From positions 186,001 through 250,000 of the forward strand of contig NZ_CANLNH010000002.1 in the NCBI RefSeq assembly GCF_947492535.1: a stretch of 64,000 nt of DNA, read 5' to 3'. How positions within the stretch are numbered: the stretch's first letter is position 1; the number at the start of each line of letters is the position of its first letter. The translations under genes and the position numbers were made by a program. The notes beneath the pieces are model-generated. The model did not search any database, was not told the origin of the DNA, and was given only the letters and a program-made list of their open reading frames with translations. Of this stretch, positions 953-57,976 are shown piece by piece. Source of the stretch: an uncultured Dokdonia sp. (GTDB taxonomy: Bacteria; Bacteroidota; Bacteroidia; Flavobacteriales; Flavobacteriaceae).

Positions 953-1528
953 TTATTCTGAGATCGCTTTCGCGAAAGCGGACTGAAGTTTAGGCACTAC
1001 TTCTACATCAAACCAAGGGTTTTTTGTGAGCCAAAACCTGTTGCGAGGCGAAGGATGTGGCAACGGAATAATCTTAGGAGCATATTCTTCATGATTTCTC
1101 ACCGTCTCTGTCAATGTCTTTTTTGCTGTATTTTTCAAATAGTACTTTTGAGCATACATACCTATAAGAATGATAAGTTGGATATTAGGCATTTTAGCAA
1201 GTAACTGTTCATGCCATTCTGGAGCACATTCTGGTCTTGGTGGCAAATCTCCTGTCTTTCCTTTTCCGGGATAACAAAATCCCATAGGCACTAAAGAAAC
1301 CTTTGTTGGATCGTAAAATACTTCTGAATCACAATCTAACCATTTACGTAATTGTCTACCACTAGGATCGTCCCAAGGAATAGATGTTTTATGCACTTTT
1401 GTCCCAGGAGCCTGCCCAATTATAATAACTCGCGCATCTGGGTGAGCCGTCACAATAGGGTTGGGCCCTAAAGGTAAATGTGCAGCACATATCCCGCAAG
1501 CTCGTATTTTAGTAAGAAGTGTTTCCAT
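953..1528 (-). CDS. Uracil-DNA glycosylase family protein
   Basis: A 191-residue protein of the uracil-DNA glycosylase superfamily (COG1573-like). Visible signatures are GQAPG at residues 38-42 (the motif that activates water and binds the uracil side), the PWDDPSGRQLRKW segment following it, and HPSPRN at 158-163, corresponding to the DNA-intercalating HPS motif. Cysteines 11, 14, 85 and 101 could hold an iron-sulphur cluster as in family 4/5 enzymes, but I have not aligned them. Likely role: removal of deaminated cytosine in base excision repair. The last nine residues include SAFAKA, encoded by the dispersed palindrome at 965-980, so its C-terminal tail appears to be built from a repeat. 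Confidence 0.85.
   Translation of the reverse strand: METLLTKIRACGICAAHLPLGPNPIVTAHPDARVIIIGQAPGTKVHKTSIPWDDPSGRQLRKWLDCDSEVFYDPTKVSLVPMGFCYPGKGKTGDLPPRPECAPEWHEQLLAKMPNIQLIILIGMYAQKYYLKNTAKKTLTETVRNHEEYAPKIIPLPHPSPRNRFWLTKNPWFDVEVVPKLQSAFAKAISE
965..980. repeat. Dispersed palindrome copy 1 (inside UDG-like gene)
   Basis: Perfect 16-bp palindrome cgctttcgcgaaagcg. Read in frame as Ala-Phe-Ala-Lys-Ala near the C-terminus of the glycosylase-like protein. Confidence 0.9.
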
Positions 1529-1620
1529 AATAGATCATATTAAACTACAATTATAACTAGATTAACAACAAGACATACTACTAGAAAAGGAATGTTAATT
1601 GTACTTTTTTTGAGTTTGCT

Positions 1621-2301
1621 CTATTTTTTTCCAGCGAGTACAATCACAATCTCTCCTTTAGGTGGTTTTTTTGTGTAATGCGCTAAAACCTCAGTAACGG
1701 TACCTCGTATTGTTTCTTCATGAAGTTTAGTAATTTCCCTAGAAACTGACACTTGACGATCTTCTCCAAAAAATTCAGCAAAATGTCCTAGTGTCTTCAC
1801 TAATTTATGTGGAGACTCATAAAAAATAATCGTTCTCGTTTCTTTAGCTAATAACAGAAGACGGGTTTGTCGCCCTTTTTTTACAGGTAAAAATCCTTCA
1901 AAAACAAACTTATCATTTGGGAGTCCGCTATTTACTAATGCGGGTACAAATGCAGTTGCTCCAGGGAGGCAGTCTACTGTAATACCTGCTTCTACACAGG
2001 CTCTCGTTAATAGAAATCCTGGATCAGAAATAGCTGGAGTTCCTGCATCGCTTATCAGCGCCATCGTCTCTCCTGCTTGTAATCTTTTAACAAGACCTTC
2101 TACTGTTTTATGCTCATTATGCATATGATGACTCATCATTTGCGTTGAAATTCCTAAATGCTTTAATAATTTACCACTTGTACGCGTATCTTCTGCAAGA
2201 ATAAAGTCCACTTCTTTTAATACACGAATGGCTCGTAATGTAATATCTTCTAGATTTCCAATAGGTGTTGGAACTAGGTATAGTTTGCTACTTTCAGTCA
2301 T
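1621..2301 (-). CDS. rsmI: 16S rRNA (cytidine-1402 2'-O)-methyltransferase RsmI
   Basis: 226 residues, the usual length of RsmI without C-terminal extension. The tetrapyrrole-methylase fold is clear: PTPIGNLEDITLRA at 11-24, AEDTRTSGKLL from residue 36, and the SAM-binding stretch ISDAGTPAISDPG at 83-95. It methylates the ribose of C1402 in the decoding centre of 16S rRNA using S-adenosylmethionine. Its first 8 bases overlap the end of the upstream DoxX-like gene, so the two are probably co-transcribed. No oddities. Confidence 0.95.
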   Translation of the reverse strand: MTESSKLYLVPTPIGNLEDITLRAIRVLKEVDFILAEDTRTSGKLLKHLGISTQMMSHHMHNEHKTVEGLVKRLQAGETMALISDAGTPAISDPGFLLTRACVEAGITVDCLPGATAFVPALVNSGLPNDKFVFEGFLPVKKGRQTRLLLLAKETRTIIFYESPHKLVKTLGHFAEFFGEDRQVSVSREITKLHEETIRGTVTEVLAHYTKKPPKGEIVIVLAGKK

Positions 2302-2659
2302 ACATAGGTCGTACTCTTTTTCCTAAGAAATACGATATCGGTAAGAAAATTAATACTAGTAGTGAAAACATGTAGCCTCCATCATCTGCATGAATATGTG
2401 CTGCAAAAGCGAGCACTGCATCAAAAAAGAATCCCGCATATGCCCATTCTGTTAGCCATGGAATACCCCGCCATAAAACCATGGCAATTCCTAACACTTT
2501 AGCAATAGCCAAAGGAATCACAATGTAGGAAGGATACTGAAGTGCTTCAAAAAACCCTTCGACCATCGCTGTATTTCTAAAATACATCTGAGCAGAAAAC
2601 GTGAAAACACCACAGGTAATAATCGTGGCGATCCAATAGCTGATTTTTTGAACCTTCAT
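2294..2659 (-). CDS. DoxX-like integral membrane protein
   Basis: 121 residues with four predicted membrane helices (about 6-24, 43-62, 70-90, 96-113) and the DoxX-like pattern of short loops, ending in a basic tail (GKRVRPMYD). DoxX-like small membrane proteins of this size are common and mostly uncharacterised; some partner with redox enzymes, but nothing here indicates that. It lies between the 286-residue acidic protein (11 bp upstream) and rsmI (8-bp overlap), suggesting one transcript of three genes. Confidence 0.7.
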   Translation of the reverse strand: MKVQKISYWIATIITCGVFTFSAQMYFRNTAMVEGFFEALQYPSYIVIPLAIAKVLGIAMVLWRGIPWLTEWAYAGFFFDAVLAFAAHIHADDGGYMFSLLVLIFLPISYFLGKRVRPMYD

Positions 2660-2670
2660 TATTTATATCA

Positions 2671-4296: not shown

Positions 4297-5394
4297 ATGG
4301 GGATCACCCGTCTAGAAATAAATCTCAATGCCTTAAAGCATAACTATACCTACCTTAGGTCTAAGCTTTCTGAAGGGGTAAAGATGATGGGCGTTGTAAA
4401 AGCTTTTGGTTACGGTAGTGATGCGAGTGAAGTGGCACTATTTCTAGAAGAATTAGGAATCGATTATTTTGCTGTGGCTTACGCACATGAAGGAGAAGTA
4501 TTGCGTAAAGCGGGAGTACAAATCCCTATTTTAGTACTCCATCCACAACCTGACAATTTCAAGACGGTTATTGAAAATTGCCTTGAGCCTAGTTTATATA
4601 GTGCCCGTGTTTTTAAAGAATTTTCCGCTTTCGCGAAAGCGCATAAACAGAAACATTATCCTGTTCATTTAAAATTTAACACCGGTCTTAATCGTTTAGG
4701 GTTCTGGGAAAGTGATACCGCTTGGGTCCTAGAACGTCTTACAGAAACTGAAACTATTAAAGTAGCGTCTATTTTTTCTCATTTGGCTGCCAGTGAAGAT
4801 CTAGAAGAGAAGACGTTTACTCAAAACCAAATTGCTAGTTTTACTAAAATAGCAAAAACGCTTCTAAATGCATTAGCGTATACACCTTTCTTACATCAGA
4901 GTAACACCTCAGCCATTATTAATTATCCAGAAGCACAATTTGACATGGTACGTACAGGCATAGGATTATATGGGTATGGAAATACACTTGAAGAAGATCA
5001 GAATTTACGTCCTGTTGCTTCACTTAAATCAGTCATTTCACAAATACATAGGATTGAACCAGGAGAAACTGTAGGCTATAATCGCGCTTATAAAGCAACG
5101 CATTACGAAAAAACGGCTACAATCCCTATAGGACATGCCGATGGTATTTCTAGAGCTTATGGTAACGGTAAAGGATATGTCACAATACAAGGTGAAAAAG
5201 CTCCCATAATAGGAAACGTATGTATGGATATGCTTATGGTGAATATCACAGGTATTGATTGTAAAGAAGGAGATGATGTGATTATTTTTGGAGAAGAAGC
5301 CTCAGCAGTTGATGTGTCTGCTAGGATTCATTCTATCTCATATGAACTCCTTACAGCGGTATCTCAACGGGTAAAACGTGTCGTTCTTCGATAG
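4297..5394 (+). CDS. alr: Alanine racemase
   Basis: 365 residues. The PLP-binding lysine is K35 in VVKAFGYGSDA; the second catalytic base is the tyrosine of VGYNRAY, followed by IPIGHADGISRAYGNG and GNVCMDMLMVNIT. It makes D-alanine for peptidoglycan. The N-terminal TIM barrel and C-terminal beta domain are both complete, with no MurF fusion. Residues 110-115 (SAFAKA) are encoded by the dispersed palindrome at 4626-4641, in a helix of the barrel where insertions should be tolerated. Confidence 0.95.
   Translation: MGITRLEINLNALKHNYTYLRSKLSEGVKMMGVVKAFGYGSDASEVALFLEELGIDYFAVAYAHEGEVLRKAGVQIPILVLHPQPDNFKTVIENCLEPSLYSARVFKEFSAFAKAHKQKHYPVHLKFNTGLNRLGFWESDTAWVLERLTETETIKVASIFSHLAASEDLEEKTFTQNQIASFTKIAKTLLNALAYTPFLHQSNTSAIINYPEAQFDMVRTGIGLYGYGNTLEEDQNLRPVASLKSVISQIHRIEPGETVGYNRAYKATHYEKTATIPIGHADGISRAYGNGKGYVTIQGEKAPIIGNVCMDMLMVNITGIDCKEGDDVIIFGEEASAVDVSARIHSISYELLTAVSQRVKRVVLR
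4626..4641. repeat. Dispersed palindrome copy 2 (inside alr)
   Basis: Perfect 16-bp palindrome cgctttcgcgaaagcg read in frame as SAFAKA at residues 110-115 of alanine racemase. Confidence 0.9.
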
Positions 5395-8333: not shown

Positions 8334-8373
8334 CTTCGACGAACTCAGTATAAACTTCACTTTCGTGAAAGCG
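8334..8373. repeat. Two degenerate repeats upstream of the oligopeptidase gene
   Basis: Positions 8334-8350 carry a cttcgacgaactcagta-type repeat unit, followed at 8360-8373 by ctttcgtgaaagcg, a one-mismatch relative of the dispersed palindrome. They lie 45-80 bp before the ATG of the next gene. Confidence 0.5.
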
Positions 8374-13199: not shown

Positions 13200-14303
13200 C
13201 TACATCACCTCAAACAACTTACCCGGCAAAGGACGTATCACTCCTTTCAATTCCATGGTGAGGAGGATGCCTGCGATTTTATGGGTTGGCATTTTACAGT
13301 GTAAAGCAATGATATCTAATTCTTCTTTTCCATGCTTTTTCAGAAAACTCCAAATCAATTTTTCATCTTCTTCTAAGGTCACAAAAAGCTTTTTCTGTAC
13401 AGGCAATGGCGCTTCTTCTTCTAACTTCCAATTAAGAATATATGCAATATCTGCCGCTGACGTAAGAACGTGTGCTTTATGTTGTTTAATCAAATTATTA
13501 CACCCTATACTCAATGGGTCTGTTGCTCTTCCGGGAACCGCAAAGACATCACGATGATATCCATTGGCAAAATCTGTGGTGACTAGCGAACCTCCTTTTG
13601 CGGCGCTTTCAATAACAATAGTAGCTTCACTAAGTCCTGCTATAATACGATTACGTTGTAAAAAATTAGTGTGTACAAACGAATCTGATGTCCAAAAATC
13701 GGTCATAAAACCACCGTTCTTTTCTACATCTTTTACATATTTACTATGTGTTTTGGGATACATTTTATCAAGCCCGTGAGCTAAAACGCCAATGGTTTGA
13801 AGGTTGTTTTTTAAAGCAGCTTTATGCGCCGTGATATCTACACCATACGCAAATCCAGATACAATAATAGGATTGAATGGGGCAATCTCTTCTATGAGTT
13901 TTTCGACAAAAGCAGTTCCATAAGACGTAATTTTTCGTGTTCCAACAATGCTAATTATTTTGCGTTGCTCCAATTTTATATTTCCTTTTTGAAATAGCAC
14001 AACAGGACCATCTATACAATGTTTTAGTCGCTGAGGATAGTCATTGTCTGTGTAACAACTATAGTGAATCTTATGTGTTTGTAGGTGTTCTAATTCTGCT
14101 TTCGCGAAAGCGGAATGCTTTTCATCCCAAAACGATTGAAGTTTATGTTCTCCTATCCCTTCTACTTTCAAAAGGTGTTCTTTTTTTTGCTGTAAAACGG
14201 CTTCGGCACTTCCAAAATGTTGAATAAGCTTTTTAATACTACCATCTCCTAAATGTGGAATATGTTGGAGTGTAAGTAAAGAAAGGAATTCGTTTTCAGC
14301 CAT
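13200..14303 (-). CDS. dprA: DNA-processing protein DprA
   Basis: 367 residues. N-terminal helix-hairpin-helix region (KVEGIGEHKLQSFWDEK), then the Rossmann core with VGTRKITSYGTAF, IVSGFAYGVDITAHKAAL, FLQRNRIIAGLS and GGSLVTTDFANGYHRDVFAVPG, and a C-terminal winged-helix domain. DprA protects incoming single-stranded DNA and loads RecA in natural transformation. Residues 64-69 (SAFAKA), between the HhH region and the Rossmann core, are encoded by the dispersed palindrome at 14098-14112. No other competence gene lies next to it. Confidence 0.95.
   Translation of the reverse strand: MAENEFLSLLTLQHIPHLGDGSIKKLIQHFGSAEAVLQQKKEHLLKVEGIGEHKLQSFWDEKHSAFAKAELEHLQTHKIHYSCYTDNDYPQRLKHCIDGPVVLFQKGNIKLEQRKIISIVGTRKITSYGTAFVEKLIEEIAPFNPIIVSGFAYGVDITAHKAALKNNLQTIGVLAHGLDKMYPKTHSKYVKDVEKNGGFMTDFWTSDSFVHTNFLQRNRIIAGLSEATIVIESAAKGGSLVTTDFANGYHRDVFAVPGRATDPLSIGCNNLIKQHKAHVLTSAADIAYILNWKLEEEAPLPVQKKLFVTLEEDEKLIWSFLKKHGKEELDIIALHCKMPTHKIAGILLTMELKGVIRPLPGKLFEVM
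14098..14112. repeat. Dispersed palindrome copy 3 (inside dprA)
   Basis: gctttcgcgaaagcg, read in frame as SAFAKA at residues 64-69 of DprA, at the junction of two domains. Confidence 0.9.
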
Positions 14304-14527
14304 ATATGTTATTTACAAACACACAAGAAACAATTTTTATTACTAGTATAAAAGTCTGCATTATCATTTTCTATACACAATTAAGACATCATCGAATATT
14401 TCTAAATAACATGCCTACTTCTGAAGCAACACACAGGAAATCAAGAGGCCACATCCCTATTTGATTTTTGTTAATAAAATATCATTATGACTGTTTGCAA
14501 AGTTTTAAAAAAAAGTATCTTTATTTT

Positions 14528-15463: not shown

Positions 15464-15583
15464 ATCCTCCTTACTTCTTATAGCATTTCTTATAGTATAT
15501 TGTTTACTAGTCATCTAGATACCCTCTAAGGTATTAATCATTAAATCCTATTCCATAAAACAGGGATAGTACAATTCGTTTAA

Positions 15584-15997
15584 ATGAATGACATTTTAAA
15601 GTTAGCTCGAATACAAATTCTTATAATCATACTATTCGCTTTTTTTAAATTTATCAGACCTTCTGTTTTGAATAGTGATTCTCCCAATTTATTCAAAGTA
15701 ATCTTATTGTCTCTCCCTAACTTTTTTGAAGCTATTGTAGGCATATTAACATTAACCAGTATTGGGCTTTATATAAATAGTAAAGTAATAACTCCTAAAA
15801 AGAAGATTAAGGATCATTTTATATATACTATAGCCATAATTTTAACAGCTATTTATGTTATCACACAAGAATTTAAAATTCATAATTTAGGCGGAAATAA
15901 TGTTTTTGATCAAAATGATGTGTTGTTTTCATGTATTGGATTAACTGTAGGGTACTTAATTATTATGTGGATTCGCCCTAAGACTCAGAATGCATAA
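15584..15997 (+). CDS. Hypothetical membrane protein
   Basis: 137 residues, very hydrophobic, with four probable membrane helices (about 8-24, 42-65, 80-97, 113-130) and a short basic cytosolic loop KVITPKKKIKDH. I do not recognise a family. It stands alone between the SPOR protein and the thioesterase, both on the same strand, with spacers of about 90-120 bp on each side. Confidence 0.65.
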   Translation: MNDILKLARIQILIIILFAFFKFIRPSVLNSDSPNLFKVILLSLPNFFEAIVGILTLTSIGLYINSKVITPKKKIKDHFIYTIAIILTAIYVITQEFKIHNLGGNNVFDQNDVLFSCIGLTVGYLIIMWIRPKTQNA

Positions 15998-16059
15998 AGT
16001 ATGTTTTTCAAATTTGCTTATTTTCTAGTTGCAGACTTCATTTTTCGTTAGATACCTCC

Positions 16060-16067
16060 TACCTTTG
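16060..16067 (+). promoter_or_regulatory. Probable -7 box of thioesterase gene
   Basis: TACCTTTG fits the Bacteroidota TAnnTTTG -7 consensus, 19 bp before the ATG. No convincing -33 element identified. Confidence 0.4.
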
Positions 16068-16596: not shown

Positions 16597-16920
16597 GAAA
16601 TCATATCATTCAACATCGTTAAAGAGAGTATCTGAAAAGGTATGATTTTCGTCAAACAGAACGTGTTTCAGTTTCCCATTACTGATATAACTGATATGAT
16701 GAGATTCTGAAATGAATTCAGAATGACGTATGAAGTTACTTTCAGACCGCATTTTATACACTATTTGAAGTATAAGAAATCTATGGTATACGCTTTCGCG
16801 AAAGCGTATAATGAATATATATTACTTGTAAGGAATTATTTAGAAATATGACTTTACATGAATGCATCATTTATTGTTATTAATAGATGCGTGTTTTAAC
16901 AACTTATAATCCTACCTATC
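16597..16920. other. Gene-free spacer filled with short repeats
   Basis: 324 bp without a gene. It holds a gaacgtgtttcag unit (about 16659), the palindrome attctgaaatgaattcagaat around 16704-16724, and a dispersed-palindrome copy at 16791-16806. No promoter consensus or RNA gene recognised. Confidence 0.6.
16787..16810. repeat. Dispersed palindrome copy 4, extended to 24 bp
   Basis: Core cgctttcgcgaaagcg at 16791-16806, flanked by tata on both sides so that the perfect inverted repeat spans 24 bp. Intergenic. Confidence 0.9.
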
Positions 16921-19972: not shown

Positions 19973-21205
19973 TTACATGCCCTTAACCCAATCTGAAGGA
20001 TCGAGTTTTGTATTGTTTTTTCTAACCAAAAATTTCAGAATAGTTTTACCATTAAACGCATTAAGACCCACTTCTCCAATAGATTGCTTAAAATCTACCT
20101 TATCTCCTACTTTAACAGTGATTTTTTTGATGTTATAATACACTGTAATGTAATCTCCATGCTTTATATATATAGCTAGATTACTTCCAGAAACATCTTG
20201 TATTTTTAAAACTTCTCCTTTGAAAACCGCTCTCACTGGCTCATTAGGAGACGTTTCTATTTCTACACCACTACTATAGGTTGTGATATTGGGCAATGTA
20301 GGATGTCTAGACTTTCCAAATCGTCTTGACACGCGACCTCTTTCTACAGGCCATATTAAGCGGCCCTTATTAGAAGCAAAATTTGAAGCAAGGCTTTTTT
20401 CTTCTGGAGTAAGCGAAAATTTCTTACTAGACTTTGGTTTCCCTGCTTTTACATTACTCGCTGCGATTGCATCTGCAATAATCTTATCTATTTGACGATC
20501 AATCTCATCTGTTTGTTGTTGCTTTTTTCTAATTTGAGCTGCATACACATTTGACTTTTTACGTACTTGTGCAACAAGTGCATCTTGTGCTTGTTTCTCT
20601 TTATCAAGTTCTTTCCTAGCAAGTCTATTTTCAGCAATTAGTGCATCTTTATCTTTTTTCTGCTGGATAAGATCTGTATTAACTTGTTGTAAGAGTACTG
20701 TACGCTCTTTTATTTGATCCCCTTGTTTCTTGCGGTAGTTTGCATATTGCTTCATGTACTGCATACGCTTATACGCCTGTTTAAAGCTCTCACTAGACAA
20801 TAGAAACATAATTTTACTTTGTCCGCTTTTGCTCTTATAAGATTTTTGAATCATCAACGCATAATCATCTTTGAGGTCTTTAAGTTCATCCCTCAAGTTT
20901 TCCATTTTATTGAGATTTTCATTGATCTCTTGTGTCAGGAGATTTGCTTGACGATTGGTTACTTTTATAATATCTGATCGCACTTTTATTTGCTGATCCA
21001 AATCTTCTACTTGTGTCAATAAGGAGATTTCTTTTTTCTTATTGGTTTCGCGTAAGCGTGATAGTTGTTGCATTTCTGCAATCAAAGAAGCTCTACGTTC
21101 TTCTAATTGTTTACGTGTTGGTTTTTGAGCAAAACTGGTTTGTAGGCCTCCTAAAAAAAAGCATACGAGTAACATCAATATATAGTTCTTTTTACTAGAA
21201 CTCAT
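19973..21205 (-). CDS. EnvC-like murein hydrolase activator (M23/LytM)
   Basis: 410 residues. Signal peptide to about residue 26 (TSFAQ), a long coiled coil (about 30-250, rich in Lys, Glu, Gln), and a C-terminal M23/LytM domain (LIWPVERGRVSRRFG, then VRAVFKGEVLKIQDVSGSNLAIYIKHGDY). The zinc ligands of active LytM enzymes (HxxxD and HxH) are not intact, as in EnvC, which activates amidases rather than cutting murein itself. It overlaps the upstream DUF4292 gene by 11 bp, so they form one operon with the TPR gene. Confidence 0.85.
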   Translation of the reverse strand: MSSSKKNYILMLLVCFFLGGLQTSFAQKPTRKQLEERRASLIAEMQQLSRLRETNKKKEISLLTQVEDLDQQIKVRSDIIKVTNRQANLLTQEINENLNKMENLRDELKDLKDDYALMIQKSYKSKSGQSKIMFLLSSESFKQAYKRMQYMKQYANYRKKQGDQIKERTVLLQQVNTDLIQQKKDKDALIAENRLARKELDKEKQAQDALVAQVRKKSNVYAAQIRKKQQQTDEIDRQIDKIIADAIAASNVKAGKPKSSKKFSLTPEEKSLASNFASNKGRLIWPVERGRVSRRFGKSRHPTLPNITTYSSGVEIETSPNEPVRAVFKGEVLKIQDVSGSNLAIYIKHGDYITVYYNIKKITVKVGDKVDFKQSIGEVGLNAFNGKTILKFLVRKNNTKLDPSDWVKGM

Positions 21206-21971: not shown

Positions 21972-23347
21972 TTATCCATTTGTGCTTTAAGTGCATTTGC
22001 TTTATTGATATACTGTTGCCCTTTTGTGGCATTTCCAGTTCCTGTATATGCTTCCCCTAGTTGTTGGTAAAAATCGGATTCCATTTTTACATCATCTATA
22101 ATATAATCTATCCCAACTTCAAGCTGTTCTATAGCTTCTTTAAATTTAGATTGTCTATTAAGAGCAACTCCATAGGTAAGATATAGTAATGGTTGAGAAG
22201 GATATAATTCTAATCCAGAAGAAGCGACTTCTTCTGCTTCTGTATATGCTCCTGTATCTAACTGTAATAAAAGTGTACTTTTAATAATATCTATATTCTC
22301 AGAATCATTTGATAATGCTTTTTTAAGATAAGGTAACGCCTTATCCTTCACTCCTTTTTTAATATAATATGCTGCTAATTTTTGATTGATCTTAGCATCA
22401 ACTACCTGAGAATCAAAGATCGAAATTGCTTCTTCTAATTGTGTTTCGTATGAAGGGTTATTATTTACAAATAGTAAGAAGTCATTTAACACCCTGTGTT
22501 TGGCCTTGGGTGTTATTTTCTTACTCTTTAAGGTACTTTTCATCGCTTCAATAGCATCATTCGTCTTTCCGTCTTCTAAATGCAGTTTATACAATGCAAG
22601 ATTTACTTCCTCAGCATTAGGATTAATTTCCTTTAGCTTTAAGGCCGTTTCATAGGCTTTTTTAGTTTCTCCTTGCTCACTATATAAATAAATAAGTTTA
22701 AGATAATCTGCTTCGGCAGTAGGGTTACTTGCAATCTTTTTTTCAATGGCGTCTGTACGTCCTTTCTCATTACCAGAAAGTTTATAGATACGATCTCTTA
22801 ATTGTTCTCTATAAATATCACTCCCTTTTACAGTATCTAATTCGTCTAGTAATTGTAAAGAGGCATCATATCGTTTTGTGGCTACATAAATGCGAGCAAG
22901 ATCTTCTTTATATTGAATATCAAATGGAATAAGTTGCTTTACGATATTTTCTGCTTTTTCGTAATCCCGATTTTTATAATACACTTCATAAAGTGCTTCC
23001 AAAACAGGTTCTTGATTTGGTTTTAACGAAAGTGTTTTCAAAAAATCATCTTCAGCGAGGTCATGTTTTTTGAGCGCTTCATAATTTTTACCTCTCTCGA
23101 AATACAGGATAGCTCTAGCAGGTTCTATGGCTATACATTCATTTAAAGAAGAAATGGCAAGCTCATAGTTTTCAATTCCTTTTTGTTTTAGGGCTTCAAA
23201 AAATGCCTCTTGAAATTCATCAGATACATCGCCAAGATCATCGACATTTTGATCTGCAAAAGGCGTTGGGTCTTGTGCATATATATGCTTTCGCGAAAGC
23301 ATACTCAAACACAAAAACAATAATACTATGTACTGATTTCTTTTCAT
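21968..23347 (-). CDS. Periplasmic TPR protein
   Basis: 459 residues of tetratricopeptide repeats (for example AILYFERGKNYEALKKHDLAEDDF and LLYLTYGVALNRQSKFKEAIEQL), from about residue 50 to the end. The N-terminus is a signal peptide MKRNQYIVLLFLCLSM...YAQDP. Residues 16-21 (MLSRKH) of this signal are encoded by the dispersed palindrome at 23287-23300, which places Arg-Lys-His between the hydrophobic core and the cleavage region. It heads the operon with the DUF4292 and EnvC-like genes. Likely a scaffold in envelope assembly. Confidence 0.85.
   Translation of the reverse strand: MKRNQYIVLLFLCLSMLSRKHIYAQDPTPFADQNVDDLGDVSDEFQEAFFEALKQKGIENYELAISSLNECIAIEPARAILYFERGKNYEALKKHDLAEDDFLKTLSLKPNQEPVLEALYEVYYKNRDYEKAENIVKQLIPFDIQYKEDLARIYVATKRYDASLQLLDELDTVKGSDIYREQLRDRIYKLSGNEKGRTDAIEKKIASNPTAEADYLKLIYLYSEQGETKKAYETALKLKEINPNAEEVNLALYKLHLEDGKTNDAIEAMKSTLKSKKITPKAKHRVLNDFLLFVNNNPSYETQLEEAISIFDSQVVDAKINQKLAAYYIKKGVKDKALPYLKKALSNDSENIDIIKSTLLLQLDTGAYTEAEEVASSGLELYPSQPLLYLTYGVALNRQSKFKEAIEQLEVGIDYIIDDVKMESDFYQQLGEAYTGTGNATKGQQYINKANALKAQMDK
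23284..23303. repeat. Dispersed palindrome copy 5 (in the TPR signal peptide)
   Basis: 20-bp perfect palindrome with core gctttcgcgaaagc at 23287-23300. Read in the less common frame as Leu-Ser-Arg-Lys within a signal peptide. Confidence 0.9.
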
Positions 23348-27106: not shown

Positions 27107-27120
27107 CGCTTTCGCGAAAA
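27107..27120. repeat. Dispersed palindrome copy 6 (partial)
   Basis: cgctttcgcgaaaa; the right arm has lost its gcg. Confidence 0.7.
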
Positions 27121-27187
27121 AAGATTTTTAACGACACAAAGAGGAAATCATGGTATCCCAAAAAGGTAACTCTAAAAACAGAAGAAT

Positions 27188-27413: not shown

Positions 27414-27428
27414 CGCTTTCGCGAAAGC
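27414..27428. repeat. Dispersed palindrome copy 7
   Basis: cgctttcgcgaaagc in the gene-free region, just upstream (minus strand) of twin element A. Confidence 0.85.
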
Positions 27429-28946: not shown

Positions 28947-28960
28947 GCTTTCGCGAAAGC
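28947..28960. repeat. Dispersed palindrome copy 8 (atpG-atpA spacer)
   Basis: gctttcgcgaaagc in the 83-bp spacer between atpA and atpG; in the mRNA it could form a short hairpin just after the atpA stop. Confidence 0.85.
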
Positions 28961-30561: not shown

Positions 30562-30595
30562 CGCTCCTGCCTACCGTCAGGCAGGTTCGCGAAAG
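30562..30595. repeat. Dispersed palindrome copy 9, split by a second palindromic repeat
   Basis: cgct (30562-30565) and ttcgcgaaag (30586-30595) join to cgctttcgcgaaag if the 20-bp insert cctgcctaccgtcaggcagg (30566-30585) is removed. The insert is itself an inverted repeat. Located in the atpA-atpH spacer. Confidence 0.8.
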
Positions 30596-32006: not shown

Positions 32007-33125
32007 TTAGTGATGCTCAGGCTCTTCTACTGCCATTCCAATAAATAAAGCTGAAAGCATCGTAAATATATAGGCTTGTAAGAATGCTACTAGCACTTCT
32101 ATAAGCGTAATAAATAATGATAATACAAATGATAATAATGTTGACCCTACCGCTCCCATTTGCTCTTGCATTGTAATACCAATAGCAATCAAACTCATTA
32201 CTACAATGTGGCCTGCTGTAATATTAGCAAATAAACGTACCGCTAATGAAAATGGCTTAATAATTAATGTTCCTGCTAATTCTATAACTGCTAATACAGG
32301 TCTTAATATATAAGGAACTCCAGGCATCCATAATTGGTGACTCCAGAAATGTCCATTACTACTTGCCATATATACAACAAATGTTAGTATTGCCAAAGCA
32401 GCGGTAACAGCAAGTTGTCCCGTAATATTGAACCCAAAAGGCATTAATCCTAATAAATTTGAAAGCCATATAAAAAAGAATACGGTCATTAAGTATCCTG
32501 TAAACTTTCTGTATTTAGGACCAATGTTTGGTTTTGCTATTTCATCTCTTACATAAAGTACAAGTGGTTCTAATACTCTTCCAAAACCTGTAGGGATCGC
32601 TTTCTTTTTATATTGTTTTGCTAATTTGCTAAACCATAGCAACATAAGAAATCCTAATAATAAGATTCCGAATATACTTTTAGTGATCGATAAATCTATA
32701 GGCATGCTTGCATTTGTTGGATGATGCGCTTCATCAAAAGCAACTTCAGTAGCACCTGCGTTTAGCTCATAAATCTTTCCGTGTAGTCTTACAAAATTAC
32801 TTCCTCCTTTTTCTACAATTTCTTTTCCGTCATCATCGTGGTGAAATGCAGAAGACATAAAAGCTGTTAGTCCATTTTCTCCCCAAAGAATAACAGGAAG
32901 TGGAAAACCTACATGATGTTCTTCTCCACCAGAAAAATATGAAAATAAATGAAAATCGTGAGAATCTTTAACGTGGTGCTGGATATATTCATTGATTTCC
33001 TCTTTGGTATTGATAGGATCTCCCTGACTATTTTGACCGTCTTTTTTATCTCCTTTCGCGAAAGCGGTAAGTGAGAAAAGTAAAATAAGACTTAAAGACG
33101 TAAGTGTTTTTGTTATTACCTTCAT
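32007..33125 (-). CDS. atpB: F1F0 ATP synthase a subunit with N-terminal extension
   Basis: 372 residues, longer than most a subunits because of a periplasmic N-terminal part with signal peptide, usual in Bacteroidota. The channel part (about 140-372) has the essential arginine in PFSLAVRLFANITAGH and the C-terminal EVLVAFLQAYIFTMLSALFIG. Residues 20-25 (TAFAKG), at the signal peptidase site (AFA followed by KGDKK), are encoded by a dispersed palindrome (33053-33066), so a repeat forms part of the export signal. Confidence 0.96.
   Translation of the reverse strand: MKVITKTLTSLSLILLFSLTAFAKGDKKDGQNSQGDPINTKEEINEYIQHHVKDSHDFHLFSYFSGGEEHHVGFPLPVILWGENGLTAFMSSAFHHDDDGKEIVEKGGSNFVRLHGKIYELNAGATEVAFDEAHHPTNASMPIDLSITKSIFGILLLGFLMLLWFSKLAKQYKKKAIPTGFGRVLEPLVLYVRDEIAKPNIGPKYRKFTGYLMTVFFFIWLSNLLGLMPFGFNITGQLAVTAALAILTFVVYMASSNGHFWSHQLWMPGVPYILRPVLAVIELAGTLIIKPFSLAVRLFANITAGHIVVMSLIAIGITMQEQMGAVGSTLLSFVLSLFITLIEVLVAFLQAYIFTMLSALFIGMAVEEPEHH
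33053..33066. repeat. Dispersed palindrome copy 10 (atpB signal peptide)
   Basis: ctttcgcgaaagcg, read as AFAK at the likely signal peptidase cleavage site of AtpB. Confidence 0.85.
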
Positions 33126-39298: not shown

Positions 39299-40354
39299 AT
39301 GGCAGATTTCCATACACTTACTATACAATCAATTACCCGAGAAACAGCACACGCTATTTCTGTTGGTTTTTTGATTCCTTCAGACTTAAAAGACATTTTT
39401 AGCTATCAAGCTGGACAATATATTACTTTAAAAACAACGATCAATGGACAAGAAGTACGTCGTGCCTATTCCATTTGTAGTACTCCTGAAAGTGGAGAAT
39501 TACGTGTTGCTATTAAGGAAGTAGAAGGTGGTACGTTTTCTACATTTGCAAATCAATCGTTAAAGGAAGGCGATACCCTTGAGGTAGCACCACCTGAAGG
39601 AAGGTTTCTCTTAGATTCCGCTTTCGCGAAAGCAAAAAAAACCTATTTAGCATTTGCAGCAGGCTCAGGGATCACTCCCATTATGAGTATGATCAAAACT
39701 ACGCTCGAAACGTCTACAGAAAGTGGTTTTGTACTTGTTTACGGAAACAAACGTCCAGAAGATGCCATTTTTAGAGATGCTTTACTTGCGTTAAGAGATC
39801 AATATAAAGATCGTTTTTCTATCGAGTTTATTTATAGTCAGTCGCGAGAAGACGGCGCTCATTTTGGACGTATTATGAAGTCTACGGTAAATTTTGTGGT
39901 TAAAAACAAATATGCCTCTCACGAGTTTAGCGATTACTATTTATGTGGTCCTGAAGCCATGATTAAAGAGGTAAGTAATGTATTAACCTCAAACGGTGTT
40001 GCCGATTCAACTATTCATTTTGAACTTTTTACAGCATCTACAGAGACTGCTGTCATAGAAGAAGCATTGGATGGAAAATCGCACGTTAAAATTCTTGTAG
40101 ATGATGAAGAATTTGAATTGACCATGTCTCAAGATGCTATCATTCTAGATGCAGCTCTTGACGAAGATATCGATGCACCACACTCATGCCAAGGTGGTAT
40201 TTGTAGTAGTTGTATTGCACGTGTGACCGAAGGAACTGCTGTGATGGAGAAAAACCAAATCTTAACCGATAGTGAAGTAGCCGAAGGACTTATCCTTACA
40301 TGTCAAGCGCATCCTACCTCAACAAAACTGGTGGTAGATTATGACGATGTGTAA
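39299..40354 (+). CDS. PaaE-like ferredoxin/flavin reductase
   Basis: 351 residues, three modules: FAD-binding FNR domain (R55-AYS motif in VRRAYSICS), NAD(P)-binding domain (AGSGITP at 121-127), and a C-terminal plant-type [2Fe-2S] ferredoxin with cysteines 297, 302, 305 and 335. This order matches PaaE, the reductase of phenylacetyl-CoA epoxidase, and related monooxygenase reductases, but paaABCD are not nearby, so it may serve another oxygenase such as a lipid desaturase. Residues 107-112 (SAFAKA), at the FAD/NAD domain border, come from a dispersed palindrome. Confidence 0.9.
   Translation: MADFHTLTIQSITRETAHAISVGFLIPSDLKDIFSYQAGQYITLKTTINGQEVRRAYSICSTPESGELRVAIKEVEGGTFSTFANQSLKEGDTLEVAPPEGRFLLDSAFAKAKKTYLAFAAGSGITPIMSMIKTTLETSTESGFVLVYGNKRPEDAIFRDALLALRDQYKDRFSIEFIYSQSREDGAHFGRIMKSTVNFVVKNKYASHEFSDYYLCGPEAMIKEVSNVLTSNGVADSTIHFELFTASTETAVIEEALDGKSHVKILVDDEEFELTMSQDAIILDAALDEDIDAPHSCQGGICSSCIARVTEGTAVMEKNQILTDSEVAEGLILTCQAHPTSTKLVVDYDDV
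39619..39633. repeat. Dispersed palindrome copy 11 (inside PaaE-like gene)
   Basis: cgctttcgcgaaagc, read as SAFAKA between the FAD and NAD domains. Confidence 0.9.
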
Positions 40355-45386: not shown

Positions 45387-46400
45387 TTATAACAAACTCA
45401 TTAGTTTCTCTATAACCATTTGTGGTGTAATCGTACGCATTACTTCCTCATATCCTTCAGGAACTTTGTTACCATATATTGATGTTGGAATAGCCGGATA
45501 CTCTTCTCTATCAGATAGTATACAATGTGTTTCTTGTTTAAAAGGAGCAAATCCAGCATAAGGATGTGTTACTCCCCACAGACTTACCACAGGAACTCCA
45601 TACATCGCTGCTAGATGGCCATTTCCGCTATCCATAGAAAGCATAATATCTAGTTGCGCTATTAGATTAATCTCTTCTGGAAATTTTAACGCACCCGCAA
45701 CTACTGTTGCATTTTCACACGTTTCGGTAAGAGATTCTAATAATTCTTTTTCGTTGGGAGCTCCAAATAAAAACAGTCTTATTCCAGATTGTTGATCTAA
45801 TTTTTGAATCACTTCCTTCATTAAATCTAACGGATATTGCTTGCCTTGATGTGCTGCAAAAGGAGCTATTCCTATGAGTTTGTTATTGGTTTTTCCTATA
45901 ACGTTAAGGACATCCCTATGTATATCTGGCCTTGAAAGTAGTGTAGGTGTTATCTCTGAAAATCCTACATTTTCAAAAACCTCAACATACCGTTGCACCG
46001 TAGTCTTGAGGGGTTTAAATATCTTATTTTCAGAAGCGGTTAGTACTTTTTTTTCTGCCCTTCCTTTGTCTATTTTGGCATTAGGAAGTCCTAAAAAAAA
46101 TCGAAGAATTTTAGATCGAAGTACGTTATGCGTATCTGCTACGTGTGTGATTCCTCGTTTTTTGAGTTGGCGAGAAAGCTTCCAAATACCTATAACCCCT
46201 TTGTGTTGTGTATTGGTTTCGGCAGCTACAAAATGTACGTTAGGTAGGGTGTTAATAATGGCCTTAAAGAAGGGTTTTGACAGTACTGTGATTTTTGTTT
46301 CTGGGTACGCTTTCGCGAAAGCGTATATCACAGGAATTAACATAGCCACATCTCCCATAGCCGAAAGGCGAATCACGAGAATGTGTTGTGGTTGTTGCAT
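45387..46400 (-). CDS. Family 9 glycosyltransferase (heptosyltransferase-like)
   Basis: 337 residues, GT-B fold. N-terminal ILVIRLSAMGDVAMLIPVIY with the GDV motif, and the donor-site motif MLSMDSGNGHLAAMYGVPVV followed by SLWGVTHPYAGFAPF. It resembles ADP-heptose:LPS heptosyltransferases and probably acts on the lipopolysaccharide core. Residues 27-31 (AFAKA in the first helix) come from a dispersed palindrome; here the peptide fits the normal helix well, so it may have replaced original sequence. 71 bp after DUF4254. Confidence 0.88.
   Translation of the reverse strand: MQQPQHILVIRLSAMGDVAMLIPVIYAFAKAYPETKITVLSKPFFKAIINTLPNVHFVAAETNTQHKGVIGIWKLSRQLKKRGITHVADTHNVLRSKILRFFLGLPNAKIDKGRAEKKVLTASENKIFKPLKTTVQRYVEVFENVGFSEITPTLLSRPDIHRDVLNVIGKTNNKLIGIAPFAAHQGKQYPLDLMKEVIQKLDQQSGIRLFLFGAPNEKELLESLTETCENATVVAGALKFPEEINLIAQLDIMLSMDSGNGHLAAMYGVPVVSLWGVTHPYAGFAPFKQETHCILSDREEYPAIPTSIYGNKVPEGYEEVMRTITPQMVIEKLMSLL
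46306..46325. repeat. Dispersed palindrome copy 12 (inside GT9 gene)
   Basis: 20-bp perfect palindrome, core gctttcgcgaaagc, read as Tyr-AFAKA-Tyr at residues 26-32. Confidence 0.9.
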
Positions 46401-50872: not shown

Positions 50873-50925
50873 AAATCTTGATAGGAATGAAATTGTTTGT
50901 ATTTTGCCACACTCATACTAGGATC

Positions 50926-52236
50926 GTGAATTTATTTAATTGGACATTAAAATTTAAGGGGTTTGATATCGCTTTCGCGAAAGCGGAATTAGCCCGTATC
51001 CAATCCATTCCTGAAGATCAGTTTCTTGCCTATGTTGAAGAAAAAAAACAAGCTATTGTAGCCTATCACAAGCAACATAACTCATTTTACAAACAACTTA
51101 CTGCTACACAAAAAAGTGACTCGTGGAATGAGCTACCTGTACTTACCAAAGCACATTTACAACAGTCATTACTGGAACGCCTCTCTACAGGATATACACG
51201 TAAAAATGTGTATGTCAATAAAACATCGGGTTCTTCTGGACATCCTTTTGTTTTTGCCAAAGACAAAATATCTCATGCGCTTTCTTGGGCAAGTTTTCAA
51301 GACAGATATGATTGGTTTGATCTAGATATAAATACCTCTAAACAAGCTCGTTTTTATGGAATTCCATTAGATTTTATGGAATATCGTAAAGAACGTCTTA
51401 AAGATTGGTTAGGAAATAGATATCGCTTTCCTATTTTTGATTTAAGTGATGTCCAGCTCAAGAAAATACATCAAAAATTTACAACCACTACTTTTGAATA
51501 CCTCAACGGATACACGAGTAGTATTGTACTATTTGCCAAATATCTGCGACAACATCACATCGTTCTTAAAGAGGTATGTCCATCGCTTAAGGCCTGTATT
51601 GTAACTAGTGAAATGCTTTTTAAAAGTGATAAACTATTAATGGAAACACAGTTTGGAATCCCTGTGATTAATGAATATGGGGCTTCCGAATTAGGTCTTA
51701 TTGCATTTCAAAATACCAATGACGAGTTTCAAGTAGATAGCGAATTATTATATGTTGAAATTCTAGATGATCAGAATATGCCTGTGCCTCATGGCGAATC
51801 GGGTCGTATTGTAATTACATCGCTCTATAATAAAGCGCATCCTTTTATTCGTTATGATATTGGGGATGTGGGTACGCTTTCGCGAAAAAGCACGCCTAAA
51901 AAACCCATCTTAGAAAAACTGATTGGACGTACCAACGATATTGCACGTCTCCCCAGCGGAAAAGTAGTACCTGGTCTTACGTTTTATTATGTCACTAAAA
52001 GTGTCATTGAAGAAGATGGAAACGTCTCTGAGTTTGTGATTGAACAAACCGCTTTAGACACGTTTAACGTAATTTATACTGCACAGCGAGCACTTACTGT
52101 ATCAGAAGAAGAAACCATCAAAAAAGCCACCTACACCTACTTAGAAGACGGGCTTACTGTACTCTTTGAAAAAGTTGAAAAGATGGATCGTAGTAAACGT
52201 GGGAAATTAAAACAGTTTGTGAGTAGAATTTCCTAA
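50926..52236 (+). CDS. Phenylacetate-CoA ligase-like (PaaK/CapK) protein
   Basis: 436 residues from GTG 50926 (VNLFNWTLKFKGF); an ATG at 50887 gives 13 more residues that do not look coding. AMP-binding core: NKTSGSSGHPFVFAKD (P-loop), EYGASELGLIAF and RYDIGDVG, then KMDRSKRGKLKQFV with the C-terminal lysine. Such proteins activate acyl or aryl acids; CapK-type members lie in capsule loci, as here. It carries two dispersed palindromes: AFAKA at residues 16-20 and LSRK about residue 317. Confidence 0.85.
   Translation: MNLFNWTLKFKGFDIAFAKAELARIQSIPEDQFLAYVEEKKQAIVAYHKQHNSFYKQLTATQKSDSWNELPVLTKAHLQQSLLERLSTGYTRKNVYVNKTSGSSGHPFVFAKDKISHALSWASFQDRYDWFDLDINTSKQARFYGIPLDFMEYRKERLKDWLGNRYRFPIFDLSDVQLKKIHQKFTTTTFEYLNGYTSSIVLFAKYLRQHHIVLKEVCPSLKACIVTSEMLFKSDKLLMETQFGIPVINEYGASELGLIAFQNTNDEFQVDSELLYVEILDDQNMPVPHGESGRIVITSLYNKAHPFIRYDIGDVGTLSRKSTPKKPILEKLIGRTNDIARLPSGKVVPGLTFYYVTKSVIEEDGNVSEFVIEQTALDTFNVIYTAQRALTVSEEETIKKATYTYLEDGLTVLFEKVEKMDRSKRGKLKQFVSRIS
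50970..50985. repeat. Dispersed palindrome copy 13 (PaaK-like gene, first)
   Basis: Perfect cgctttcgcgaaagcg, read as AFAKA. Confidence 0.9.
51873..51887. repeat. Dispersed palindrome copy 14 (PaaK-like gene, second, partial)
   Basis: tacgctttcgcgaaa; right arm degraded (aaagca). Read as Thr-Leu-Ser-Arg-Lys, in a different frame from the first copy in this gene. Confidence 0.75.
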
Positions 52237-52261: not shown

Positions 52262-53050
52262 TTAATAGTTCTCAATCCGTTTTGTTCTCACAAAAAAGTA
52301 CTCATAAAAAAAGCGAAGTAAACAAAAGGCAGACTTAATCCAAGAATAACCTAGATACTCTTTATAAAACTTGAAGTTATAGGTTACCAAGTTGAGTTTA
52401 TTAGAACTTATAGATCCTTCTCGTATTCTATAATAGGCTAAATCTTCTTGGAGTCCTACAGCGGGTCTATTTGATTTTTTGATCGCTTCTAACCAAACAG
52501 CCCAGTCTTGTCGTTTACGTATGTTAGGCGCTATTATTTTACCTATTTCGGAAGCTTTATAGATGCCTGTTAAGTTTCCCACATAGTTATTACTATGTTG
52601 TTTTTGATAGGTGAGTTCTGGCAATGCTTTGATACGTTTGCCTAAGGGTTTTCCCGCTTCATTAATATGGGTGTAACTCGTATAGGAAACGGCTGCATTA
52701 TGCGTTTCCATATAGTTGAGCTGTTTTTCGAGTTTTTCTGGATGCCATAAGTCGTCTGCGTCTAGAAAAGCAATATAATCTCCTGTAGCAAGTTCTGTCG
52801 CTTTATTACGGGATTGTGCTGCCCCACTATTTCGCGAAAGCGTAACCACTTTTATACGTGTATCCTTTTTTGAAAGCTCTTCTACTATGTTTAATGAATT
52901 ATCTGTAGAGCAATCATTTACAATAATATGTTCCCAATGCGTATAGGTTTGTTCTTGAATGCTTTTTACGGTAGGTATGATATAATTTTCTGCATTGTAC
53001 AGAGGAGTGATAATAGAGACAAGCGGAAGGTGGTTAGTAGGCTTTTTCAT
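52262..53050 (-). CDS. Family 2 glycosyltransferase
   Basis: 262 residues. GT-A fold: VSIITPLYNAENYIIPTVKSI, DCSTDNS, the NSGAAQSRN motif, FLDADD (metal site) and a C-terminal Q-x-DWAVWLEAI acceptor segment. It transfers one sugar during repeat-unit synthesis. It overlaps the sugar transferase gene by 17 bp. A half-site ttcgcgaaagcg of the dispersed palindrome lies at 52831-52842 (SRN), where normal family residues are encoded. Confidence 0.9.
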   Translation of the reverse strand: MKKPTNHLPLVSIITPLYNAENYIIPTVKSIQEQTYTHWEHIIVNDCSTDNSLNIVEELSKKDTRIKVVTLSRNSGAAQSRNKATELATGDYIAFLDADDLWHPEKLEKQLNYMETHNAAVSYTSYTHINEAGKPLGKRIKALPELTYQKQHSNNYVGNLTGIYKASEIGKIIAPNIRKRQDWAVWLEAIKKSNRPAVGLQEDLAYYRIREGSISSNKLNLVTYNFKFYKEYLGYSWIKSAFCLLRFFYEYFFVRTKRIENY

Positions 53051-56690: not shown

Positions 56691-56710
56691 ATCTCAACTT
56701 AATTAAAGCA

Positions 56711-56718
56711 CAAAAATA
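56711..56718 (-). promoter_or_regulatory. Probable -7 box of the ugd operon
   Basis: Minus strand TATTTTTG, 21 bp before the ugd ATG. Confidence 0.5.
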
Positions 56719-56752
56719 GGGAAGTATTTACAGTCTTTTGTCTCTATAGAGC

Positions 56753-57976
56753 TTATAATTGCATGAGTTGCTCTAAAAACGCATCTAAAATTTGATTTTT
56801 AGCAAAGTTTGATACTACATACTGTCTTGCTTTTGTACCCATTTCTTTAGCTATCTCAGGATTATTTATAAGTGTTTCTAACTGGCTTATTACAGTATCT
56901 ACCTCTTTTTCAGAGCTATAAAAACCTCCTTGAGCATCTGTCATTGCAGTAGCAACTTCAGATTGTGCATGTCCTGTAATAATAGAAGGTTTTGCACTTG
57001 CCATCATTCCTAATATTTTAGATGGCATCACAGTGTCTACTACTTCAGGCTTTTGAAAGAGTATATGGGTATCTGCACTACATAATAAATCTGATAATTC
57101 TTCATATGCAACGGGAGGATATAGTGTAATCTCAGGGTATCCTGCTATTGCTTCTTCAAGCCATATGCGTTTTGAACCATCTCCTACAATCACAATTTCA
57201 AAGCGTTCAAAATCGATTGCTTCGACAAATTTCATAAAAAAGTCCCAGTCTTGTTTGTCTCCTATGTTTCCAGAATATAAAATTTTAAATTTTGAGGATG
57301 TTAAATAGGAGTGCGCTTTCGCGAAAGCGGGATCAATTTGCTTTTCATCTATCCAGTTAGGTAAGAAATACGTAGGAGCCGTTGTTTTTTTCTCCAGTTT
57401 TTTAATCATTGTATGACTAATCGTACTAGCGATATCGGCTTTTGAAAAGAGCGATTTTTCAATCCACATCAATAAACGATACACGATACCTCCTTTTTGC
57501 TCACCACTTTTAGTAAGTCCAGATTGAAAGGCTGCATCAAATTCAAAATCTTGTATATGAATCCAAGATTTAGCATTAAAACGTCTTTTTTGAATATAGC
57601 CTAAAAGCGTAGCGCTCGTAAAAGGAACGATAGAAATAACAATATCACATTCCTTTATTTTCCAAAGATTCCTAAAAGAACCCCATGTAAAGGAAAGAAT
57701 ATGAATGATTCGTTTTAGAAATGTAGGGTTTGCAGGTACATATTGCTTATATCTATATACATGTATAGATCCTAATTCTTCTTTTAGGTATGACTTTTTA
57801 TTTTGATACTCCTTAGCAATTTTCCATTGTGGGTAGTAGGGAAATGCGGTAATTACATCCAATTGAATATCATGATCTTCTAGATACTGTGTAAGCTGCG
57901 TTGAATATAGGCCAATTGCAGTACTTTCAGGATAGAAATTGAGTCCAATAAATGTGATATGGGTGCGTTTTTTCAA
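56753..57976 (-). CDS. Family 4 glycosyltransferase, WcaI-like
   Basis: 407 residues, GT-B fold. N-terminal ITFIGLNFYPESTAIGLYS with the WcaI-like opening, FPYYPQWK, the ILYSGNIGDKQDW link to the C-terminal domain and the late EPVDTVMPSKI-like donor segment VVDTVMPSKILGMMASAKP. It probably adds fucose-like or glucose units in an exopolysaccharide. Residues 217-221 (AFAKA), in the loop between the two domains, come from a dispersed palindrome. Confidence 0.87.
   Translation of the reverse strand: MKKRTHITFIGLNFYPESTAIGLYSTQLTQYLEDHDIQLDVITAFPYYPQWKIAKEYQNKKSYLKEELGSIHVYRYKQYVPANPTFLKRIIHILSFTWGSFRNLWKIKECDIVISIVPFTSATLLGYIQKRRFNAKSWIHIQDFEFDAAFQSGLTKSGEQKGGIVYRLLMWIEKSLFSKADIASTISHTMIKKLEKKTTAPTYFLPNWIDEKQIDPAFAKAHSYLTSSKFKILYSGNIGDKQDWDFFMKFVEAIDFERFEIVIVGDGSKRIWLEEAIAGYPEITLYPPVAYEELSDLLCSADTHILFQKPEVVDTVMPSKILGMMASAKPSIITGHAQSEVATAMTDAQGGFYSSEKEVDTVISQLETLINNPEIAKEMGTKARQYVVSNFAKNQILDAFLEQLMQL
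57314..57329. repeat. Dispersed palindrome copy 15 (inside WcaI-like gene)
   Basis: Perfect cgctttcgcgaaagcg, read as Pro-AFAKA-His at residues 216-222. Confidence 0.9.

Follow-up and report, generated by a model that had tools for sequence, protein, structure and literature searches.

A palindrome of 14 bp, GCTTTCGCGAAAGC, repeated through a 64-kb stretch of an uncultured Dokdonia sp. genome (positions 186,001 to 250,000 of contig NZ_CANLNH010000002.1; hereafter the window, taken at its full 64,000 nucleotides), forms the hard core of a dyad-symmetric DNA element of ~52 bp. The element is characterized by its number, its taxonomic range, an even spacing along the chromosome, an excess between genes, conservation between species, flanks on both sides of the core, a scarcity of free half-sites and the presence of copies in the DNA of some phages. 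Judged from these sequence patterns, the element has about an even probability of serving as a site by which a symmetric protein machine inside the cell would recognise self DNA, in a Chi-like or an architectural capacity.

Number, taxonomic range and placement of the element

The window holds 17 matches to GCTTTCGCGAAAGC at up to two mismatches, 11 of them exact, as compared to a mean of 0.03 and a maximum of 1 in 100 dinucleotide shuffles. In the 4,863,283 bases of the genome holding the window (G000), 827 exact copies were counted and none of the pattern read backwards. The first-pass annotation of this DNA had judged the repeat to be beyond chance, and both controls bear this out. The coordinates that it gave were accurate to within 3 bases; its wording 'complete or nearly so' takes in the 11 exact copies, the remainder being near copies, and a degenerate copy at 21044 (2 mismatches) was absent from its list. 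When the most over-represented 9-mers were ranked, the motif or its arms made up all of the top 24 in samples of G000 (464 kb) and of a second Dokdonia genome, the 3.29-Mb circle G016, and the top 10 in G230, the genome of a genus designated g210.

The genus of the window was traced through relatives of its DprA, that of Dokdonia pacifica being 90% identical and its genome carrying 903 copies. All 18 Dokdonia genomes searched carry 369-905 copies, the two lowest counts belonging to genomes that are 78 and 85% complete. In a sample of Flavobacteriaceae, 80 of 397 genomes have at least one copy; hundreds are found only in Dokdonia (2 sampled), in a genus designated g11 (three of three genomes, with 578, 664 and 609 copies) and in g210 (one of one, with 408). 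All other Flavobacteriaceae sampled hold 0-19 copies, which are clustered in several of these low-count genomes, and none of the 395 genomes of a phylum-wide sample, other than G000, exceeds 6. The densities in the samples of G016, G000, G230 and g11 are 0.35, 0.23, 0.22 and 0.20 sites per kb, respectively. No report of this palindrome was recognised in the open-access PMC literature, the letters of the motif included in the search.

Placement along the chromosome is more even than random, as evident from the coefficient of variation (CV) of the gaps between sites, which is 0.68 in G000 (400 kb, scored with the 10-bp core TTTCGCGAAA) and, for exact 14-mers, 0.62 in G016 (230 kb) and 0.68 in G230 (726 kb), as compared to ~0.98 for random placement; 0 of 5000 simulations were as low in any of the three. 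With exact 14-mers only, the CV of G000 is 0.745, a value reached by 0.5% of simulations. Gaps shorter than 1 kb number 4, 2 and 0 in G000, G016 and G230 against expectations of 18.6, 16.4 and 12.5, and the evenness persists when the split between coding and intergenic sites is preserved (0 of 3000 simulations in G000). Twenty stretches distributed round the G016 circle contain 5-9 sites each, with a variance/mean ratio of 0.22 (P 0.0002 under Poisson), the ratio for G000 stretches being 0.60; no density trend was visible round the G016 circle, on which the positions of ori and ter were not located.

Open reading frames (ORFs) were called by us as the longest non-overlapping frames, and the coding fractions are approximate. 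While only ~10% of the DNA is intergenic and ~90% lies in ORFs, the intergenic share of the copies is 42/107 in G000, 64/140 in G016 (one edge site dropped), 8/16 in g11 and 7/44 in G230, the excess being small in g210. The other TTTCGCGAAA sites, 65 of 107 in the 464-kb sample of G000 and 76 of 140 in G016, lie within ORFs, in agreement with the earlier description of the palindrome as present both inside and between genes. Depending on the frame, copies within genes are translated as AFAK, FRES or LSRK, of which AFAK is the commonest. Intergenic copies are nearer to the 3' ends of genes (median 32.5 nt in G000 and 26 nt in G016) than to the 5' ends (78.5 and 79 nt), and divergent intergenic regions also carry copies (14/60 in G016).

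Anatomy and conservation

The intergenic copies of Dokdonia have the consensus TACGCTTTCGCGAAAGCGTA, which consists of the core and preferred outer arms. Of the occurrences of the half-site CGCTTTCGC, those located within TTTCGCGAAA make up 148/152 in G000, 236/239 in G016 and 54/58 in G230, and half-sites alone are not enriched. Exact copies of the 10-bp core, its one-mismatch forms and the Markov expectation of the latter (one resample each) number 141, 25 and 17 in G016, 107, 30 and 13 in G000, and 44, 24 and 7 in G230. One-mismatch forms of the Haemophilus influenzae uptake sequence occur at ~3 times expectation (Table 1 of PMC1939737); by this measure, for which the expectations were computed differently, the motif is more sharply defined in G016 than the H. 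influenzae sequence is, and in G230 it is not.

A second layer extends ~4-20 bases outside CTTTCGCGAAAG, where, on the strand that enters the core in the 5' to 3' direction, G/T is enriched and C depleted over ~17 nt on each side, both strands alike. Owing to this layer beyond the arms, the unit comes to ~52 bp. At -6 to -21 from TTTCGCGAAA (G000 and G016 together), C and G count 226 versus 719 in intergenic and 402 versus 1303 in coding sites, as compared to 493 versus 573 and 804 versus 827, respectively, at -25 to -40. The mean G/T (keto) content of the flanks is 0.664, as against 0.499 (standard deviation 0.006; z 27) at places shifted by 150-1500 bp; it exceeds 0.5 on both sides in 168 of 213 sites and on at least one side in 212. 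The keto content peaks at 4-5, 7-8, 10-11, 13-14 and 17-19, the coding and intergenic profiles being closely similar (r 0.92) and both having a period of 3 to 3.5, for which coding phase cannot account in the intergenic set. TCGCGA and CGCG outside the motif, as well as a control palindrome, gave keto values of 0.50-0.55 (TCGCGA 0.55 and 0.50), and sites with a degenerate outer arm gave 0.58 and 0.61. The G/T excess is also present in g11, in transferred islands and in viral contigs, the positional profiles of the sets being correlated at r 0.32 to 0.79 (d5-20; P above 0.05 for 5 of the 15 pairs).

In G016 a higher G/T content of one flank goes with a lower content of the other (rho -0.28, P 0.001), perhaps with one strong flank being enough; rho is 0.03 in G000. 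A claim of lower conservation at bases 3-18 from the core than at greater distance was dropped, as the mismatch fraction was equal (0.205 versus 0.202) under other alignment limits. In this retest (256 pairs, 56 distinct query sites), G-T, A-C and A-G exchanges were relatively commoner near the core and C-T was not, which leans weakly, the pairs not being independent, towards flanks maintained as G/T rather than as a product of deamination.

The cores are conserved between species of Dokdonia far more strongly than control 10-mers. At 70-75% DNA identity, 146 of 172 aligned sites have an identical 10-bp core as compared to 6.4% of control 10-mers; the corresponding values are 103 of 164 versus 12.9% at 75-80% and 70 of 107 versus 19.3% at 80-85%. 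In total, 430 of 585 aligned site pairs have an identical core; the pairs are drawn from fewer loci, which they share, and hence are not independent. The copies are apparently held by selection on the DNA itself. In comEC the codons CGC TTT CGC GAA AGC, which contain the same 14-mer, stand at the same place in all eight Dokdonia genomes compared and in G230, though the surrounding protein differs greatly between them; other codons stand there in 3/3 g11 and 10/10 motif-free genomes. When aligned ORFs of g210 and Dokdonia samples were compared, 1 site place was shared among 10 + 8 sites, with 0.02 expected; none was shared between g11 and Dokdonia (2 + 3 sites) or between g210 and g11 (1 + 1). 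The ComEC tree places g210 beside Dokdonia (100/99, long branch) and g11 apart, a single clade of all motif-rich genomes not being rejected (p-AU 0.43), and in the ParB tree g210 stands beside Dokdonia with weak support.

Two transformation genes carry sites, comEC (fixed at one place in Dokdonia and g210) and dprA (Dokdonia), and many other genes also carry sites. The dprA copy pointed out in the first-pass annotation is genuine (PF02481 match); by themselves, copies in dprA and comEC are weak evidence of an uptake signal, because sites occur in many gene types.

Phage contigs, transferred DNA and copies in the window

At least 120 stretches of viral contigs match the 14-mer. The 20-bp form gives 27 stretches on 21 contigs, which have 1-8 sites each at 0.08-0.47 per kb in the parts read. 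One of these contigs, at 63% GC, is probably unrelated. Viral contig 1 encodes terminase, portal, head protease, major head protein and tail sheath (0.26 sites per kb); viral contig 2 encodes tail sheath, baseplate hub, a transposase and a DNA transposition protein (0.15 sites per kb) and is read, from its genes, as probably Mu-like; and viral contig 3 encodes a portal protein (0.25 sites per kb), one of its sites lying in an ORF that by eye resembles a prohead protease. In the parts read, the density of these three phage-gene contigs is like the 0.20-0.35 sites per kb of the hosts. Contigs with a terminase 74% identical to that of viral contig 1 have sites at partly similar places (unaligned), and no site was found in a viral relative whose terminase is 34% identical.

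In 20 loci of low-count genomes (L056-L075) most copies lie in ORFs, some of which recur across several genera. The eight ORFs scanned from these loci encode RND transporters, an outer-membrane efflux protein, P-type ATPases, a CusB-like protein and a Fur-like regulator. The simplest reading of metal-efflux type clusters that carry the motif in otherwise motif-less genera is DNA from a motif-rich donor. An ORF of 405 amino acids with two sites 933 bp apart is present in L056, L058, L059 and L062, that of L056 being the outer-membrane efflux protein. In G441, an uncultured Aquimarina (the genome of L013), all 14 copies lie on one contig, at 25.7-121.6 kb, owing either to transfer of an island or to misbinning of the contig.

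The copy at 30562, which the first-pass annotation had called split, is indeed so: a second palindrome of 20 bp (CCTGCCTNCCGNCAGGCAGG type) forms a clean insertion in the first, and the same insertion is present in L093 and L094. The site is uninterrupted in L080, L081, L082 and L084. Exact nested forms number 4 in G000 and 11 in G012; a search of 8 further genomes gave none. It is possible that the second palindrome is a tiny mobile element targeting the first.

The copies of the window are listed below. Domain scans of ten of its copy-bearing ORFs gave, among others, the uracil-DNA glycosylase superfamily, alanine racemase, DprA, a TPR protein, ATP synthase A, an oxidoreductase and three glycosyltransferases.

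Table 1. Copies of the palindrome in the window, and one whole element whose ~52-bp extent is taken from the averaged flank profile. L numbers are our handles for loci; (+) and (-) give the strand.
Feature	Position	Context	Remark
Exact core	966..979	ORF 953-1528(-), uracil-DNA glycosylase superfamily	Read SAFAKA
Exact core	4627..4640	ORF 4297-5394(+), alanine racemase	SAFAKA; 14-mer identical in L008, L009, L022, L032
Degenerate copy, 2 mismatches (TTTCGTGAAA core)	8359..8372	Between ORFs	
Exact core	14098..14111	dprA, ORF 13200-14303(-)	SAFAKA; 14-mer identical in L008, L009, L010, L023, L031
Exact core	16792..16805	Intergenic	Arms make a perfect 24-bp palindrome
Degenerate copy, 2 mismatches	21044..21057		
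Exact core	23287..23300	ORF 21968-23347(-), TPR protein	Near N-terminus, LSRK frame
Core, one outer arm broken (GCTTTCGCGAAAAA), 2 mismatches	27108..27121	Intergenic	
Exact core	27415..27428	Intergenic	307 bp from copy at 27108
Exact core	28947..28960	Intergenic (28884 / 28968)	
Split copy	30562..30595		CGCT + 20-bp second palindrome (30566-30585) + TTCGCGAAAG
Core, one mismatch (CCTTTCGCGAAAGC)	33052..33065	ORF 32007-33125(-), ATP synthase A chain	
Exact core	39620..39633	ORF 39299-40354(+), NAD/FAD and 2Fe-2S oxidoreductase domains	SAFAKA
Whole ~52-bp element (example)	46290..46341		CTTTCGCGAAAG (46310-46321) + 20 bp each side; 5' flank G/T-rich per strand
Exact core	46309..46322	ORF 45387-46400(-), glycosyltransferase family 9	
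Exact core	50971..50984	ORF 50878-52236(+)	
Core, one outer arm broken, 2 mismatches	51876..51889	ORF 50878-52236(+)	Flanks strongly G/T-rich (0.81, 0.81)
Core, one outer arm broken (TATTTCGCGAAAGC), 2 mismatches	52828..52841	ORF 52262-53050(-), glycosyltransferase family 2	
Exact core	57315..57328	ORF 56753-57976(-), glycosyltransferase	

Readings of the element

Of the three roles that the first-pass annotation offered without claiming any, the REP-like mobile palindrome is not supported; a binding site of a nucleoid or segregation protein and a DNA uptake signal stay candidates. If the element is read inside the cell, DNA bearing it would be taken as self by a protein machine dedicated to it and symmetric, either dimeric or two-sided. 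Such a putative reader would need both halves, contact ~52 bp symmetrically, tolerate any gene context, reward a copy every few kb and act on any resident DNA, phage included. Selection on each copy would be weak and directed to coverage of the chromosome, with no long empty stretch and no gain from close pairs. Two roles of this kind, recombination/repair processing by a two-way analogue of Chi and chromosome organisation, are put forward as equally tentative, each being somewhat doubtful when taken alone. In the Chi-like branch, the G/T-rich strand remaining next to the core would be well suited to the loading of RecA, and one copy would serve both directions because the core is palindromic. 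The narrower proposal, in which the palindrome marks self DNA for end processing and works both ways, is doubtful: a nuclease-helicase arriving from either side would meet the same core and leave a G/T-rich strand for recombinase loading, and one copy every few kb would protect the cell's own DNA, some resident phages sharing the sites. Copies in phages follow directly from an intracellular reader; with an uptake receptor, they follow only if prophages also spread by transformation.

Several observations weigh against an intracellular reader. Chi sites likewise recur every few kb, are specific to a clade, benefit whatever DNA bears them and are rich in G/T on one strand, but those known are short (5-8 nt), one-way, non-palindromic and read as a single strand, whereas the element here is a palindrome of at least 14 bp. 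The literature search gave no paper on the preference of RecA for G/T-rich strands. In g210 the flanks carry less of the signal (keto 0.575), and the profile of G000 correlates poorly with those of g11 (r 0.32) and phage (0.45). Mu-type transposition genes were identified on only one viral contig, and the density in phage contigs is biased upward because the contigs were chosen for at least one site or for kinship. Two lytic Nonlabens-type phages, whose recorded host, Persicivirga, may itself be without the motif, lack a copy. No reader protein was found, and neither a ParB/Noc paralogue nor PF00145 nor PF01555 tracks the motif. Even spacing and non-coding excess have also been reported for uptake sequences (PMC1939737, in part).

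A ParB/Noc-type reader was considered and rejected, one HTH_ParB match being present in 8 of 9 motif-rich as compared to 14 of 15 motif-poor genomes; a second, weak match occurs in G011 and in the motif-free G034. The parS/Noc sites resemble the element as palindromes with TTTC...GAAA halves read by a dimer, but they are few and near the origin, whereas the element is present in hundreds of copies everywhere. The canonical parS core TTTCACGTGAAA was found neither in 24 parB loci nor in the sequence scanned from G000 (400 kb), G016 (400 kb) and G230 (200 kb). The palindrome itself lies within the parB locus (3-4 kb viewed) in 7 of 9 motif-rich genomes, with about half expected by density on our own estimate. 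Among the close site pairs of the samples, no autoregulated DNA-binding gene stood out by eye.

A DNA uptake signal, with which competent cells would bind and import element-bearing DNA and copies would build up by uptake bias and transformation, is a possible explanation although clearly short of even probability. The uptake signal sequences (USS) of Pasteurellaceae and DNA uptake sequences (DUS) of Neisseriaceae share with the element hundreds of copies, even spacing, non-coding excess, protein-tolerant placing (here AFAK, FRES and LSRK), soft flanks round a hard core and restriction to a few genera (PMC1939737, in part); Riemerella is naturally competent and R. columbina favours its own DNA (PMC7965970, in part). 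USS and DUS are, however, not palindromes (PMC1939737, in part), whereas the element is a perfect one and is also present, at host-like density, in some phage contigs. Its one-mismatch halo in G016 is small as compared to the 3-fold excess of H. influenzae given in the same source, which also names E. coli Chi, GCTGGTGG, in its Table 6; G000 and G230 are closer to that excess. ComEC, the sole uptake gene examined, is present in 12/12 motif-rich genomes but likewise in 12/12 motif-free genomes and does not discriminate.

The remaining explanations are less probable. HIP1 (GCGATCGC) and the alternate cyanobacterial HIPs are, like the element, GC-rich highly iterated palindromes spread genome-wide and clade-wide in and between genes, and an origin or upkeep through a DNA methyltransferase together with repair, the proposal made for HIP1 (PMC4390886, in part), would agree with the substitution, rather than insertion, seen at 33054, where the ATP synthase A site (AFAK) differs from the relatives L081 and L082 by ungapped substitution (AFAG, AFAT). 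Such an origin is nevertheless improbable: HIP1 has 8 bp and HIPs have matching methylases (PMC4390886, in part), whereas here 14 bp and flanks of ~20 bp are required, longer than usual methylase sites. Moreover, of the two methylase families examined, the cytosine methylase PF00145 is present in 5/12 motif-rich genomes and absent from 7/12, the window's genome included, PF01555 is above cut-off in 2/12, and 6/12 have neither; TCGCGA outside the palindrome has little or no flank signal. A palindrome copied to new places, such as the repetitive extragenic palindrome (REP) suggested in the first-pass annotation, would account for many near-identical and often intergenic copies, and REPs and bacterial interspersed mosaic elements (BIMEs) are indeed short palindromes repeated hundreds of times. 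REPs are, however, extragenic and mobile, whereas more than half of the sites in both Dokdonia samples lie in ORFs and the one in-gene difference inspected closely, at 33054, is an ungapped substitution, so that this role is not supported and is very improbable; the spacing is also over-even for random insertion. Of 126 aligned pairs in which the second species is without the core, 84 have no subject gap in it as against 42 with a gap (4 spanning all 10 bases), and of the 28 inspected individually several are the nested insertion. Equally improbable is a transcription terminator or RNA hairpin, with which the proximity of intergenic copies to 3' ends, a 22-nt RNA foldable at -8.3 kcal/mol and arms that match slightly more often than expected at positions 3-6 (d3 0.55 versus 0.40; pooled P 0.013, 0.028) would be consistent; two further small excesses of arm matching occur farther out in coding sets. 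Against it, most Dokdonia copies lie within ORFs, divergent intergenic regions carry copies, and a terminator scan of 14000-33900 in the window matched one of seven TTTCGCGAAA sites and one degenerate copy. The arms vary mostly independently, intergenic d6-12 being matched at 0.31 versus 0.39 shuffled in G016 and at 0.42 versus 0.37 (P 0.047) in G000, with no stem-like covariation beyond position 6; the core is uninformative on covariation because it is invariant.

Highly iterated DNA signals are few, namely HIP1, USS/DUS and Chi, and the cause of HIP1 upkeep is still debated. The element adds an iterated signal from another phylum, in which a palindromic core is combined with phased flanks on both sides. 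Its spacing is markedly even, it is nearly absent from the other genera sampled, and some phages have copies. It is also a sensitive marker of DNA seemingly moved from motif-rich genera, such as the metal-efflux type clusters. Species of Dokdonia are cultured marine bacteria, so that binding, uptake and break repair are directly testable in them. To our knowledge no palindromic or Bacteroidota Chi-like site has been described, and the literature search gave none; if the reading as a two-way site for DNA end processing is true, the element would be the first of either kind.

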